Assembly: GCA_029960885.1 (NCBI GenBank)
Contig: JASBVV010000023.1
Location: 1-64,000 of the forward strand
Reading direction: 5' to 3'
Length of the DNA: 64,000 nucleotides
From: Kyrpidia sp.
GTDB lineage: Bacteria > Bacillota > Bacilli > Kyrpidiales > Kyrpidiaceae
Positions 547 through 60,478 of this stretch are shown here, one piece after another (within the stretch, counting starts at the first letter, position 1; the number at the start of each line of letters is the position of its first letter). The notes under the pieces are model-generated. The model did no database searches and was not told the DNA's origin. It saw only the letters and a program-made list of their open reading frames with translations. The translations under genes and the position numbers were made by a program.

Positions 547-2691
547 ATGAAAAAGCGTACTTTTTCCGCCCCATTCCTCGCGACCGTGTGCCTCGCCGTG
601 TTTCTTTCTTTCGGGTGGAACCCGGTCGCTCGGGCGGACGAGCCCCTGGCGGTTCGAGGTACCGTCGATTTCTCCTCCTGGGATTGGATCCGGCAGGGGA
701 CGGCGGTTCTCGACGGGGAGTGGGAATTCTACTGGAACCGGCTGTTGACGCCCCGCGACTTTCTTTCCGGCGCCCCGCCGGGGCCGGTCACCTATATTCA
801 GGTGCCGCAGACGTGGCGCGGGCGGAGCGCCGGCGGTTCACCGCTGTCCGGGCAGGGGTACGGGACCTACCGCCTTGTCATCCGGACGTCGCCGGCGGAC
901 GCCGGACGGGAGATGGCCCTTTACATCCGGGGGGTGGCGACCGCCTACAAGCTCTGGATCAACGGGAACATGGCGGCGGAAAAGGGCGTGGTGGCAACCA
1001 ACCGTCCGGATATGGTGCCGGAGGAATATTCTCAGCCGGTGTTCTTTCATCTGCAGGGAGAACAGAGCGAGCTCATTCTGCAAGTGTCGAATTTTGTCCA
1101 ACGCAAGGGGGGACTGTGGGAACCGATCTCCCTCGGTACCGCCGAGGAGATCGTTCTGCAGCGGGAACGGGCAGTGGCTTTTGAAACGGGGCTGGTGGGC
1201 GTTTTCTTTGCGGTGGGGCTGTACCACTTCGGATTGTTTCTCGCGCGCCGCAAGGAAACATGGGCCTTCTATTTCAGCGGCCTGTGTTTCGCTATCGGCA
1301 TTCGCACCCTGACCACCGGGGAAACGTTGATCACCCGACTCTTCCCGTGGATTTCGTGGGAAATGTCCACCCATCTGGAGTATTTATCGGTGTGCGTGGC
1401 TGTGCTGATGTTGATCCTGTTCACCCATGCCCGCTATCCCGGGGAAGTGAACCTGCGGTGGCGCAACGGTTTCGCGGCGGTCCTGACGGCGTACGGCCTG
1501 TTCGTGGCCGTCACCCCGGCCATTGTGTATACATACACCATGTTGCCTTTTCAGCTGTGCGTATTGGCCTCCATTATCGATGTCGTCCGGGTCTTGATTC
1601 TCGCCTGGCGGCGGAAGCGATCCGGGGCGTCCCTCGACCTGTTCGCGGGCGCGGTGATGTTCATGTTTGCGATGAATGACGTTCTCTATTACAACCACCT
1701 GATCACCTACGGACGCCTCATTCAGTTCGGCATGCTGTTTTACGTCCTGATTGAAGCCTTCTCCTTGGCGCATCAATTTTCTTCCCTGTTCTCCCAGACC
1801 GAAAACTTGGCGGTCCAATTGCAACAGACGAACGAGTCCCTGGAAGAACGGGTTCGGGAGCGCACCCGGGCCCTCCAGGAGTCGAACGCCCGGTTGCAAC
1901 GGACCAACCGCGATCTGTACCGGATGGAACAGGCCCGGCGGCACCTGTTATCCAATATCTCCCATGAATTGGGAACGCCGCTCACCCTGATTCGCGGGTA
2001 TATCAAGGCGGTTCTGGACCGGGTGGACGAATCGAGAAACGACCAGTTCCTGCGCCTGACCTACGACAAGACCGTGATGATGGAACGGATCATCCGGGAT
2101 CTGCTCGAACTGTCAAAATTGGAGGCGGGACAAATCGACTTTCATTATCAGTGGGTGCATCCGCTGGAATTTTTCCGGGGATTGTTTGAAAAATATGAGT
2201 TTGCTCTTCAGGAGGCCGGCGTTCGTTTCGATTGGACGGTGAAGGGATGGGACATGCCGGGATTTGAAGCGATCCGCGTTGATCCGATCCGCATGGAACA
2301 GGTCTTTGCGAACCTGTTGTTCAACGCGCGAAAATACACGGCTCCGGGGGGCCGGATCGAGGTTGTGGTGACCGGAATTCAGGGCCGCACATCGGAGGAG
2401 TCGGCGGTGCGGGTCGAGATTCGGGATACGGGCAAGGGAGTTGGCAAGGAGGACCTTCCCTTTGTGTTCGAACGGTTCTATCGGGGCAGAGAGGCCCGCA
2501 ACAGCTCCCCGGGCAGTGTGGGCCTCGGGTTGGCCATCTGCAAAGAAATCGTCGAAAATCACGGCGGTCAGATCGGGGTGGAGAGCCGGGACGGGGTTGG
2601 CAGCGCGTTTTTCTTCACGCTTCCGGCGAGCCGGAGAGCGGAGGGATCCGTTCCCGGGGATCACCCGGATGGAAAGGAGTTCTGGGCATGA
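547..2691 (+). CDS. Sensor histidine kinase with 7TMR-DISM sensor module
   Basis: This 714-residue membrane kinase has a signal peptide (about 1-30), an extracytoplasmic jelly-roll-like DISM domain (about 35-195, with WEFYWNRLL), about seven membrane helices (about 205-410), a coiled coil (about 415-465), and HisKA and HATPase domains. The H box NISHELGTPL places the phospho-accepting histidine at residue 473. The N box has NLLFNARKY, the G boxes DTGKGVG and GLGLAICKEIV. Proteins of this architecture autophosphorylate in response to an external, often carbohydrate-like, ligand; the ligand here is unknown. Its stop overlaps the start of the response regulator in an ATGA junction, so the two are translationally coupled and very likely partners. 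Confidence 0.9.
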   Translation: MKKRTFSAPFLATVCLAVFLSFGWNPVARADEPLAVRGTVDFSSWDWIRQGTAVLDGEWEFYWNRLLTPRDFLSGAPPGPVTYIQVPQTWRGRSAGGSPLSGQGYGTYRLVIRTSPADAGREMALYIRGVATAYKLWINGNMAAEKGVVATNRPDMVPEEYSQPVFFHLQGEQSELILQVSNFVQRKGGLWEPISLGTAEEIVLQRERAVAFETGLVGVFFAVGLYHFGLFLARRKETWAFYFSGLCFAIGIRTLTTGETLITRLFPWISWEMSTHLEYLSVCVAVLMLILFTHARYPGEVNLRWRNGFAAVLTAYGLFVAVTPAIVYTYTMLPFQLCVLASIIDVVRVLILAWRRKRSGASLDLFAGAVMFMFAMNDVLYYNHLITYGRLIQFGMLFYVLIEAFSLAHQFSSLFSQTENLAVQLQQTNESLEERVRERTRALQESNARLQRTNRDLYRMEQARRHLLSNISHELGTPLTLIRGYIKAVLDRVDESRNDQFLRLTYDKTVMMERIIRDLLELSKLEAGQIDFHYQWVHPLEFFRGLFEKYEFALQEAGVRFDWTVKGWDMPGFEAIRVDPIRMEQVFANLLFNARKYTAPGGRIEVVVTGIQGRTSEESAVRVEIRDTGKGVGKEDLPFVFERFYRGREARNSSPGSVGLGLAICKEIVENHGGQIGVESRDGVGSAFFFTLPASRRAEGSVPGDHPDGKEFWA

Positions 2692-3398
2692 ACGAGGGGC
2701 ACAAGGTGCTGGTCGTGGAGGACGATGGAGAACTCCGCGAATTGGTGGAGCTGTACCTGCGAAGCCACGGGTACCGGACGGCGTCGGCGGAAAACGGCCG
2801 GCGGGCGTTGGAGCTGCTGTGTCGGGAACAGCCCGACCTCCTGATCCTGGACGTGTTGCTTCCGGATATGAACGGCGTGGAATTGTGCCGGAGGATCCGC
2901 CGGAGCTCCGACGTGCCCGTGCTCTTTTTGAGCTGGAAAGGGACACCGGGCGATATTGTGGCCGCGCTGGAGGAGGGCGGGGACGATTATTTGACGAAGC
3001 CCTTCGATCCCATGGTACTGCTGGCCCGGGTCAAGGCCCGGCTGCGGCGGCCGGGGAGCGGGTTCCACGACGGCGCCGGGATGGAAAGCGTTCGATTTGG
3101 ACATGTCGAGGTCAACTTCCGCTCTTTGGAGGTGCGGGTGGCCGGCAAGCGGGTGGATCTGTTCACCAAAGAACGGCAACTGCTGTTTTTCCTTCTTCAG
3201 CATCCCGATCAGGTCTTCAGCGCGACCCAACTGCACGAACAGGTGTGGGGCTGGGACGCCTCCAGCGACGAGCGGACCGTGATGGTGCACATCAGCAATT
3301 TGCGCAAGAAAATCGAGCCGGATCCGATGCGCCCGCGATATATTCAGACCGTGCGCGGATTCGGATATAAGTTTTCCGGCGAAGGGGAACACGGCTGA
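2688..3398 (+). CDS. OmpR/PhoB-family response regulator
   Basis: This 236-residue protein has a receiver domain (about 5-118) with acidic pocket E11-D12-D13, phospho-acceptor D55 (LLILDVLLP), S82 in the Thr/Ser switch position and K104 (YLTKPF). A C-terminal winged-helix domain (about 135-232) reads KERQLLFFLLQHPDQVF, then WG-D followed by RTVMVHISNLRKKIE and the RGFGYKF wing. Phosphorylation by the overlapping upstream kinase is inferred to drive dimerisation and DNA binding. The target genes are not evident. The downstream neighbours are a hydrolase relic and an oxidase operon on the opposite strand. Confidence 0.92.
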   Translation: MNEGHKVLVVEDDGELRELVELYLRSHGYRTASAENGRRALELLCREQPDLLILDVLLPDMNGVELCRRIRRSSDVPVLFLSWKGTPGDIVAALEEGGDDYLTKPFDPMVLLARVKARLRRPGSGFHDGAGMESVRFGHVEVNFRSLEVRVAGKRVDLFTKERQLLFFLLQHPDQVFSATQLHEQVWGWDASSDERTVMVHISNLRKKIEPDPMRPRYIQTVRGFGYKFSGEGEHG

Positions 3399-5565: not shown

Positions 5566-6064
5566 CTACTTGACGACCAGCCGTCCCAACATGGCCTGAT
5601 GTCCGCTGCCGCAGTACTCGTTGCAAACGATGATGTGATCCGCTTTGTTGTGGAAGGTGGCGGTGTACTCGGTGATGTGGCCGGGCACGACCATGAGGTT
5701 CACGTTGGTTCCCGGGATTTCAAATCCGTGAACCACATCCGGACTGGTCACCTCAAAGTGAACGGTGGCTCCAACGGGCACCGTCAGCGTGGTCGGCTGG
5801 TACATGAACATCCGGGCGACAACCACCGCCCGATATTCGTTCGGACCGACTTGGTACAAGCCGGGGTGGTCGAAAGGCGGGGTGGTTCGCACCGCCTCCG
5901 GGGAGATGGTTTTCATCTGCCCCGGGTTGTGGCACTCCCCATCCCAATGCCATCGCCGCGAGAATCGCCAGAAACACAAACAGGGATCCGGCGCCGATCA
6001 TGAGCCATATTCGTTCAGACCGCGGCATGTCCATATTGAGCACAGATCCATTCACCACCCTCAT
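5566..6064 (-). pseudogene. cbaB: ba3-type oxidase subunit II (CuA), frameshifted
   Basis: The N-terminal half (RIWLMIGAGSLFVFLAIL, one membrane anchor) and the CuA cupredoxin half (SPDVVHGFEIPGTNVN, VCNEYCGSGHQAM with the two Cys, His and Met ligands) lie in different frames. The interval is 499 nt, one base more than a multiple of three. The break falls at the CCCCGGG run at 5920-5926, where removing one G (minus strand) restores a 165-residue protein of normal length. All CuA ligands are intact. Translation would start at an ATG overlapping the stop of the small subunit (ATGA). Either the gene is newly inactivated or the base is a sequence error; an otherwise intact operon makes an error plausible. 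Confidence 0.75.
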
Positions 6065-9109: not shown

Positions 9110-9631
9110 GTGCCCTTGCAGGATGCGCGATACATGGAACGTGCTTTGGAACAGGCCCGGCGGGCGCGGGCGATGGGAGAGGTGCCGATCGGCGCGGTGG
9201 TGGTGGTCGGCCGGCGGGTGGTCGGTGAAGGTCACAACCTCCGGGAGACATGGAACGATCCCACGGCCCATGCCGAGATGGTCGCCTTGCGCCAGGCGGC
9301 ACAGGCCATCGGCGGTTGGCGGCTGATGGGGGCCACGCTGTACGTGACGTTGGAACCGTGCGCCATGTGTGTGGGGGCCGCCGTATTGGCCCGGGTGGAC
9401 CGGGTGGTGTTTGGCGCGCCCGATCCCAAAGCCGGAGCGTGCGGTTCGGTGTTGAACGTGGCCGGCGCGCCGCTCAATCACCGCGTGCAAGTCGAAGGCG
9501 GCGTGCTCCAGCAGGCTTGTGCCGATCTGCTCGTTCAATTTTTCCGGGATCTGCGCAGGCCGGACGGGCCGCGACATCACGTTGTCCCGCAGGGTGCGGC
9601 CCACGATGATGTTCCGCGGAGAGATGTCTGA
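9110..9631 (+). CDS. tadA: tRNA-specific adenosine deaminase TadA
   Basis: The enzyme converts A34 to inosine in tRNA-Arg(ACG). Zinc-deaminase motifs are complete: TAHAEMVAL (zinc His and catalytic Glu) and PCAMCVGA (two zinc Cys). At 173 residues it is slightly longer than usual. The start is uncertain among GTG 9110, TTG 9116 and ATG 9134; no strong Shine-Dalgarno decides. The 3' end runs about 14 bases into the following tRNA-Ser gene. In Bacillus tadA likewise precedes the SRP RNA and dnaX. Confidence 0.93.
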   Translation: MPLQDARYMERALEQARRARAMGEVPIGAVVVVGRRVVGEGHNLRETWNDPTAHAEMVALRQAAQAIGGWRLMGATLYVTLEPCAMCVGAAVLARVDRVVFGAPDPKAGACGSVLNVAGAPLNHRVQVEGGVLQQACADLLVQFFRDLRRPDGPRHHVVPQGAAHDDVPRRDV

Positions 9632-9706
9632 GTGGTCGAAAGAGCTCGCCTCGAAAGCGAGTAGCCCCGAAAGCCCTCGTGGGTTCGAATCCCACCCTGT
9701 CCGCCA
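9618..9706 (+). tRNA. tRNA-Ser(CGA)
   Basis: A class II tRNA with anticodon arm CTCGC-CTCGAAA-GCGAG, giving anticodon CGA, a long variable arm, T arm GTGGG/CCCAC around TTCGAAT, and encoded CCA. The acceptor pairs 4-69 (G-G) and 7-66 (A-C) are mismatched. The gene overlaps the 3' end of tadA. Confidence 0.85.
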
Positions 9707-9762
9707 AAGCCTTATACATCAAGGGGATTCGCGCACTGCCAGTATCGGCGGTGGATCGATGC

Positions 9763-9853
9763 GGAGAGATGTCCGAGTGGTCGAAGGAGCACGATTGGAA
9801 ATCGTGTAGGCGGCAAAAACCCAGCCTCGGGTTCGAACTCCACCTCTCCGCCA
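9763..9853 (+). tRNA. tRNA-Ser(GGA) with irregular T arm
   Basis: The anticodon arm CACGA-TTGGAAA-TCGTG gives anticodon GGA. The 5' acceptor strand GGAGAGA and the 3' CTCTCCG-CCA are typical. From the T-loop G53 to the discriminator there are 20 bases where 21 are expected, and the 3' T-stem strand (TCCAC) does not pair well with the 5' strand. One base appears to be missing there. Confidence 0.8.
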
Positions 9854-9857
9854 CTGA

Positions 9858-10127
9858 TCTGCCGCGCCAGGCGGAGGTGGGCGGTGCCCTGAACCCGCAA
9901 TCCGCTAGAGCGGGGTTGAAGGCTTGTCGTGAGGTGTGCGTCATGGGTGGCCGGCACCGGCCTCGGAGCGTCGACGACCGTCCGCGCGGCGGGTCCTTCC
10001 GAACCGTGTCAGGTCCTGACGGAAGCAGCACTAAGGGAGATCGCCCGGGTGCCGCAGGGGTGCCTGGCCCGAGCCACCCGCCGGTGTAACGCCTCGGTGT
10101 CCGCATCGAAGACAAGGGCGCGGCAGA
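9858..10127 (+). ncRNA. scr: Signal recognition particle RNA, large Bacillus type
   Basis: The SRP core is clear: GTCAGGTCC, a UGAC loop, GGAAGCAGCA, then the GTGCCGCAGGGGTGCCTGG strand opposite. The Alu domain is present 5' (GCGGTGCCCTGAACC, GCAATCCGCTAGAGCGGG), as in the Bacillus scRNA of about 270 nt. The termini pair: CTGCCGCGCC at 9859-9868 with the GGCGCGGCAG ending at 10126. With Ffh it targets secretory and membrane proteins. The apical tetraloop is UGAC, a URRC-type loop instead of the common GGAA. The position between tadA and dnaX matches B. subtilis. Confidence 0.95.
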
Positions 10128-26350: not shown

Positions 26351-27116
26351 ATGGAGATGGAGCTTTTTGATTCCCACAGTCACCTGAACGACGAGGCCTT
26401 TGCCGGTGATGTGGCCGAGGTCGTCGCCCGGGCGGAGGCGGCCGGGGTTCGGACGGTGGTGGTCCCCGGTTATGACCTTCTCTCGTCGGAGCGGGCCGTG
26501 GAACTGGCCCAAGGGTTTGATACCCTTTACGCTGCGGTGGGCATTCATCCCCACGAGGCGGCGTCTGCCGACGACGCAGCCATGGATCGCATTCGAGAAT
26601 TGGCCCGGGGCGCCGGCGGTCCGGGAAACGTGAGATCGAGGCAAACTATCATTACGATCATTCCCCAGGACGTGAAAGTTTTTGAGCGGCATCGCCCTGG
26701 CCAGGAGTTGAACCTTCCGTGATTGTCCATGATCGAAGGCGCACGCCGATACCGTGGAATGGCTCCGGCGCGCCGGGGCCTCGGAGGTCGGCGGCGTGAT
26801 GCACTGTTTCTCCGGCAGTTGGGACATCGCCCAGGAGTGTTTGCGCCTGGGCTTTTACCTGTCTTTTGGAGGACCGGTGACCTTTAAAAACGCCCGCCGT
26901 GCCCGGGAGGTGGCGGCCCGGGTGCCGGAAGACCGGCTGTTGATCGAAACCGATGCTCCCTATCTCACTCCGGAGCCCCACCGCGGCAAGCGAAACGAGC
27001 CGGCACACGTGGCCCTGGTCGCCGGAGCCCTGGCCGCGGTCCGGGAGACGGACCCGGAACACTTGGCTTGGGTCACCCGGGAAAATGCCCGCCGGCTGTT
27101 CCGGGTGCAGCGATGA
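26351..27116 (+). pseudogene. tatD: TatD-family metal-dependent DNase, disrupted
   Basis: The N-terminal part (ELFDSHSHLND with the HxH metal site, VGIHPHEA) and the C-terminal part (VMHCFSGS, SFGGPVTFK, LLIETDAPYLTPEPHRGKRN) are normal TatD/YabD sequence, but a stop falls between them. In 26630-26760 the expected residues (YHYDHSP, DV, VFERH, ALAR, ELNLP, IVHD, AHADTVEW) appear piecewise in shifting frames, which needs at least four single-base losses, several at runs of G. The intact family member is about 255 residues. Flanking metG and rnmV are intact and the stop still overlaps rnmV (ATGA), so the lesion is local. Confidence 0.8.
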
Positions 27117-49316: not shown

Positions 49317-49515
49317 GGTGCCCGGCCCTTGTGGCCCGGCTTGTCGAGTCCGTCCGCCTCGGGGTTCGGGTCCCGGCACCGGGGGAATCGGTTGCCAGAA
49401 AGCGCCATTGTTAAAATCCCCTGGGGTGCGCACCCTAATGTTGACGAACCATCCGCTTGCGATCATTCCTTCCAGACTTTCCGTTTAAAAGCACCCACTA
49501 CGCGACAAAGGAACC

Positions 49516-50058
49516 GTGAAAGCTACGGGCATCGTTCGTCGCATTGATGATTTGGGCCGCGTCGTGATCCCGAAAGAGATCCGTCGAACTCTGCGCATTC
49601 GCGAAGGCGATCCCCTCGAGATCTTCGTCGATCGCGACGGTGAAGTGATTCTCAAAAAGTATTCCCCCATTGGCGAACTCGGCGATTTCGCGAAGGAATA
49701 CGCCGATTCCCTGCATGAAAGCCTGGGCCACATCACGCTGATCTGCGATCGGGATGTCGTCATCGCCGTGGCAGGCGCCCCGAAGAAAGATTTCCTCGAA
49801 AAACCGGTGGGCGCGGATGTGGAACGCGCAGTGGAGGACAGACGGATCATTGTGGATACCGAGCCCGGCCAGTGGGCCATTCTGCGGGACGAACCCGACT
49901 CTTTCTCCTCCCGGGTGATTGCGCCGATCATTGCCGCCGGAGACCCGATCGGGGCGGTGATCCTGCTGTCCAAGGATGAGCAGGTGCGCATGGGCGAATT
50001 GGAAAAGAAAATGGCGGAGACCGCCGCCGCATTTCTCGGAAAGCAGATGGAGCAATAG
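49516..50058 (+). CDS. spoVT: Stage V sporulation protein T
   Basis: The 180-residue regulator has an AbrB-type DNA-binding domain (MKATGIVRRIDDLGRVVIPK) and a C-terminal GAF domain (SLGHITLICDRDVVIAVAGA, IAAGDPIGAVILLS). SpoVT is a SigmaG-dependent modulator of forespore gene expression. The GTG follows AAAGGA closely. I saw no convincing SigmaG promoter in the 199-bp gap after the PpiC gene. A terminator follows. Confidence 0.95.
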   Translation: MKATGIVRRIDDLGRVVIPKEIRRTLRIREGDPLEIFVDRDGEVILKKYSPIGELGDFAKEYADSLHESLGHITLICDRDVVIAVAGAPKKDFLEKPVGADVERAVEDRRIIVDTEPGQWAILRDEPDSFSSRVIAPIIAAGDPIGAVILLSKDEQVRMGELEKKMAETAAAFLGKQMEQ

Positions 50059-52707: not shown

Positions 52708-52760
52708 GAGGAAAGAAATATTTGTGGTGAATCCAGGTTGAGAAAGGGGCCTTGCAGAAC

Positions 52761-58727: not shown

Positions 58728-59315
58728 ATGCCGGTTCAGGGACAGTGGATGGCCGTGGTGGCGTTGGCGGGGTGCGGGGCCGCCCTTGGTGCGGGATATG
58801 ACTTGTACAACACGATCCTGCGGGGACGTCGAGAATGGCGGTGGGTGTTTCCGTTCGCCGACCTCGCCTTTTGGGCCGCCGCATTGGCCGGGGTGTTTCG
58901 CCTTTTGCTGGTCACCGTGGACGGGGAGATGCGGCTGAGTTTTTTGGCCGTCATGGGGCTGGGATTCGGGCTGTACCGGATTTGGGTTCACGCGGCGGTG
59001 GTGCGTTCCGCACAATGGGTGGCCGGCGCGGTCACATACTGCATCCGCCTCGGGCGCAGACTATGGAATGCCCTGATCCGGAGGCCCGTCGCGGCCGGGT
59101 GCCGGCTGCTTCTCGCGGCGCTTGAAGGGATCTTGCGCATTCTCGGATTTTTTGAGAACATGATCCTGTGGCCTCTTGGCCCGGTGATCGGATGGGTGCA
59201 GAAACGGGCCGAGGACAGGGGCGAAGCGGAGCGCCCCGGGCGCGACGACGAGGGCCGATCCTGGTGGAAAACGGCAAGGCGCTGGTTATTCAGGCGGTTG
59301 GGAAGAAAAGAATGA
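58728..59315 (+). CDS. yabQ: Spore cortex protein YabQ
   Basis: The 195-residue membrane protein has four or five hydrophobic segments at its N-terminus (MAVVALAGCGAALGAGYDLY, ADLAFWAAALAGVFRLLLVT, FLAVMGLGFGLYRI) and a basic C-terminus. YabQ localises to the forespore membrane and is needed for cortex formation. The order yabP-yabQ-divIC is conserved. The ATG is two codons after an in-frame GTG and is better placed. Confidence 0.9.
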   Translation: MPVQGQWMAVVALAGCGAALGAGYDLYNTILRGRREWRWVFPFADLAFWAAALAGVFRLLLVTVDGEMRLSFLAVMGLGFGLYRIWVHAAVVRSAQWVAGAVTYCIRLGRRLWNALIRRPVAAGCRLLLAALEGILRILGFFENMILWPLGPVIGWVQKRAEDRGEAERPGRDDEGRSWWKTARRWLFRRLGRKE

Positions 59316-60327: not shown

Positions 60328-60402
<75 letters not shown>

Positions 60403-60478
60403 GGCGGAGTAGCTCAGTGGTCAGAGCATGCGGTTCATACCCGCAGTGTCGGGGGTTCGAATCCCTCCTCCGCCACCA
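60403..60478 (+). tRNA. Elongator tRNA-Met(CAT)
   Basis: Acceptor GGCGGAG/CTCCGCC pairs fully; the anticodon arm TGCGG-TTCATAC-CCGCA gives CAT; CCA is encoded. Sequence style matches the elongator tRNA-Met rather than the lysidine-modified tRNA-Ile. Confidence 0.9.

Follow-up and report, generated by a model that had tools for sequence, protein, structure and literature searches.

Indel errors that fragment genes are a problem of long-read and hybrid assemblies, one named in the Kastor abstract (PMC12007338). The locus described below resembles such errors in that frames are broken by small indels, mostly of the deletion type, and are revealed by intact relatives. It differs in that the errors of our draft genome are limited to short patches in otherwise clean sequence, and some of these patches are inverted or joined from other genes. 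A hybrid assembly also exists for the same bacterial family. The coal-fire sample Bu22-1 yielded three Kyrpidiaceae MAGs, the most abundant with 97.45% AAI to K. tusciae; according to that study, Illumina and R9.4 MinION reads were assembled with metaSPAdes in hybrid mode, and the MAGs were scaffolded and gap-filled with Npscarf (PMC10215811). This is a setting where patches of the present kind would be expected, and our draft might be one of these MAGs, though the paper's text does not name it in the parts used here.

The third system for comparison is the TatD family itself. TatD/YabD is a nuclease regarded as non-essential. The window, by which we mean the whole analysed stretch of 64,000 nucleotides (G000:C20:1-64000), belongs to a draft that comprises 102 contigs (2.04 Mb in total) and is 86.4% complete. 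It was compared with two genomes of the same genus, G001 (3,384,766 bases) and G002, each a single contig of 3.4 Mb. The comparison set has one genome per species; G001 is the nearest relative of the draft in it and is taken to be Kyrpidia tusciae DSM 2912. In both relatives TatD is encoded by an uninterrupted frame of 257 aa and the gene order is that of the window, in which the list of open reading frames gives tatD as two frames of 123 and 120 aa:

26351..26722, + strand: 5' fragment of tatD, 123-aa frame, TatD-like to about 26608 and then in changing frames
26609..26745, + strand: damaged patch of tatD with six blocks of lost bases and four frame shifts, closer to G001 than its flanks
26754..27116, + strand: 3' fragment of tatD, 120-aa frame, the in-frame TatD match beginning at 26736

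Both fragments match the profile of the TatD family DNA exonucleases (TIGR00010) in the proper order, at positions 1-81 and 139-252, and lie in the same neighbourhood as the genes of G001 and G002. They differ from these genes in that no full-length frame exists and neither fragment reaches the family cut-off of 206 bits (57 and 140 bits), in contrast to the intact G001 protein, which covers positions 1-252 with 303.5 bits. A search for the family in the three genomes returned one full TatD per relative, an additional weak match under the cut-off in G001, and from the draft only the two fragments; no single open TatD frame above the TIGR00010 cut-off was found in the draft.

The preliminary description of this DNA had proposed that tatD is disrupted by a cluster of small deletions, and aligning its nucleotides with those of G001 and G002 bears this out. 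Fourteen bases are absent in six gap blocks between about 26613 and 26745; the blocks measure 1, 8, 2, 1, 1 and 1 bases, all of them losses, with no gain relative to either genome. The expected residues had also been said to appear in changing frames within about 130 bp, and frame-aware alignment of protein to DNA indeed places four shifts there, at 26609 (-1), 26668 (-2), 26720 (-1) and 26737 (-1), at identical positions whether G001 or G002 serves as reference. The estimate of at least four single-base losses needs correcting as to size, since blocks of 8 and 2 bases occur as well. Similarly, the association with runs of G applies to some losses, which fall at G or C runs, and not to the remainder. 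Homopolymer undercalls as the sole cause were rejected, because several losses are not in runs. Outside the patch, frame-aware alignment against G001 and G002 found no further lesions in either half of the gene. The halves are well conserved, though not perfectly, as had been claimed: the two tblastn pieces have 58% and 82% amino-acid identity to G001, the first of them extending into the patch. Several indels thus occupy a short patch with clean flanks, and the relatives are intact, which is the pattern of a local sequence or assembly error.

Clusters of gaps in blastn alignments could not be used as a count of errors; at 76% identity, dense gaps appear also at 59200, 33243 and 44445. We therefore switched to frame-aware alignment. 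Against a background of roughly six isolated mid-gene shifts (a manual count) per 127,349 aligned codons, 133 bp should contain 0.002 shifts, and at least four would occur with a Poisson probability of about 8e-13. Such clustering is far beyond chance, so all the events must have a common cause.

Between its losses, the patch is also more similar to the relatives than the gene around it is. Ungapped identity to G001 in 26640-26753 is 90.4% by blastn and 87.7% by MAFFT, and reaches 94.4% in the best of the listed 120-column windows; the remainder of tatD is about 75% identical, i.e. below the patch. Among the patch codons with a conserved residue, 22 of 27 are identical to G001, compared with 50% in the whole window. 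This closeness is moderate, being matched by 2-3% of other windows, and a two-state scan with an island state of 97% did not call the tatD patch as an island. In that scan the density of gap events was only a little higher within islands (60 in 5,477 columns) than in the remaining sequence (2,929 in 392,671).

The patch is flanked by palindromes:

26604..26625, unstranded: GC-rich imperfect palindrome (87%) at the left edge of the patch, failing the stricter test
26761..26780, unstranded: GC-rich palindrome (92%) directly to the right of the patch, among the seven in the window that pass the strict test

They were sought after the fact and one of the two passes the strict test; we take them as a weak lead towards the cause of an assembly gap at tatD.

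Similar damage occurs elsewhere in the draft. When 697,097 of its bases were compared with 560,000 bases of G001, nucleotide matches covered 401,591. After merging, 37 places combined four or more gap openings with at least 86% ungapped identity in 120 columns. For six of these, tatD included, the best listed window reaches 94%; the five others are:

C26:3475-3672: glnA
C1:42434-42568: patch before an ftsA-like reading frame
C15:18847-19229: spoIVA
C20, about 9700-9990: region of tRNA and SRP RNA genes
C20, 49398-49592: partly within a reading frame

The glnA gene (TIGR00653, 601 bits for the G001 protein) contains about 170 bp at 94% identity or more, with five indels and abrupt edges in a background of 76-84%, and its frame is shifted three times. 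On contig C1 about 180 bp, likewise indel-rich and abruptly close to G001, extend into the start of a reading frame that we presume to be ftsA-like. In the coordinates of the individual loci these two are:

L145:3527-3722 (contig C26): indel-rich patch of glnA, abruptly close to G001
L114:2450-2634 (contig C1): indel-rich patch before the ftsA-like reading frame

Within spoIVA (TIGR02836, 853 bits), a segment of 227 bp (C15:19003-19229, also L135:19003-19229) is inverted with respect to either relative. One of its ends consists of a noisy duplicate of some 50 bp whose clean counterpart adjoins in the opposite orientation; a mis-joined noisy read is almost the only sensible interpretation of this arrangement.

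Of the 408 G001 genes in the frame-aware scan, 27 were flagged as broken. Besides tatD, five of these have at least three events: glnA, a 749-aa and a 223-aa reading frame, and genes of 665 aa (C1) and 450 aa (C26). The 749-aa and 223-aa frames were judged from the surrounding frames to be false, the latter overlying tRNA-Ser and SRP RNA genes. Many of the remaining flags concern the first 45 codons, where the probable reason is a reading frame called with too early a start. A shift at 52726 was dismissed as a gene break, the affected frame being a false one over an intact frame of 93 aa, which we take to be HU-like. Single mid-gene shifts, seen relative to G001 only, are present in genes that are rodA-like (C11:33393, L117:13393), tlyA-like (C13:40387, L153:387) and pdhA-like (C30:32496, L158:12496).

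The RNA genes of the window provide a gauge of error. Indels relative to G001 are present in all four of its tRNA genes:

60328..60478, + strand: two tRNA-Met genes without any substitution relative to G001, one base absent in each and two between them
9618..9852, + strand: two tRNA-Ser genes whose stems are damaged; the 39 bases at the end of the first one are identical to tRNA-Ser(TGA) on contig C19

That evolution removed bases from the tRNA-Met genes while sparing all other positions is implausible. In its last 39 bases, tRNA-Ser(CGA) is identical to the 3' end of the tRNA-Ser(TGA) gene from C19, and its own 5' acceptor strand does not pair fully with this end; two genes of the draft have been joined here. 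The SRP RNA beside the tRNA-Ser genes, with which it shares the region 9618-10123, has small indels relative to G001 and G002.

We propose that the break in tatD is an assembly artefact, a short patch of badly read sequence and not a dying gene, and assign to this reading a probability of about 0.93. The main assembly of the species would have been interrupted inside tatD, and some 130 bp would have been supplied by a single noisy, deletion-prone read or by a few of them. The contig would in this manner have been closed across its weak spots by a handful of noisy reads. The reads were presumably long noisy ones, and a co-resident strain closely related to K. tusciae may be the source of some of them. 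Sites diagnostic between the two relatives are too few in the patches for a donor to be named. The organism itself probably carries an intact TatD. The same kind of damage in glnA, spoIVA, tRNA-Met and tRNA-Ser, that is, in essential genes and RNAs, is the pattern expected of assembly error.

Real decay, in which tatD would be a recent pseudogene broken when several small deletions arose locally in one burst, for example through error-prone repair of one lesion, has in its favour that the frame is broken in the sequence as given and that TatD is generally regarded as dispensable. The ratio pN/pS is ambivalent: among 62 genes of the window, that of the 5' half, 0.318, falls between the 75th and the 90th percentile, as decay would have it, that of the 3' half, 0.180, is below the median of 0.226, and these values do not separate recent decay from error. 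Neither half has another lesion outside the patch, which speaks at most weakly against decay, since a gene broken very recently would show the same picture in both respects. The preliminary description had leaned towards error over decay, and this preference is supported because like damage affects glnA, spoIVA and the tRNA genes and because one tRNA-Ser gene is joined. Noisy gap filling or chimeric assembly accounts for all of this damage together with that of tatD; decay explains none of it outside tatD, and we regard it as highly unlikely. Still further from plausibility is the idea that tatD is functional through programmed or translationally rescued frames. Nothing besides the broken frame suggests it, such a mechanism would have to cope with four shifts in the same direction and with 14 missing bases, and TatD occupies a single frame in both relatives; we consider its chances negligible.

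The closeness of the patches to G001 could in principle reflect real recombination, with short K. tusciae-like donor tracts in the chromosome and the indels arising as sequencing errors or as a by-product. Consistent with this, the patches of tatD, glnA and the region before the ftsA-like frame exceed their flanks in similarity to G001, and the edges are abrupt at glnA and before the ftsA-like frame. However, the tracts measure only 110-230 bp, one of them is inverted and each contains indels, all of which fits a noisy join better, and tRNA-Ser unites two genes of the draft itself. Recombination therefore seems to us very improbable. We give just as little credence to a bolder version, in which the patches are real, K. 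tusciae-like tracts keep entering at conserved spots, and the process leaves deletions and inversions behind and has broken tatD.

On our reading of the locus as an assembly artefact, the tatD feature is useful as a flag on the draft. Taken at face value, the draft would have tatD, glnA and others miscounted as pseudogenes and it contains tRNA genes joined from two, so that counts of gene loss or of pseudogenes made from it would be wrong. Other drafts can be screened in the same way, by searching for short stretches rich in indels whose similarity to a relative rises abruptly, the tRNA genes serving as an internal gauge.

Three further places in the window deserve mention. The indel-rich stretch at 49398-49592, with high ungapped identity to G001, starts ahead of the reading frame at 49516 and extends into it. 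A gene resembling CoxB (cytochrome c oxidase subunit II; 5569-6043, - strand) has, compared with both relatives, a single additional base near codon 36. Finally, 2669-3179 is gap-free and 94-97% identical to a distant, non-syntenic region of G001 (1.72-1.92 Mb), and is perhaps a mobile or duplicated gene.
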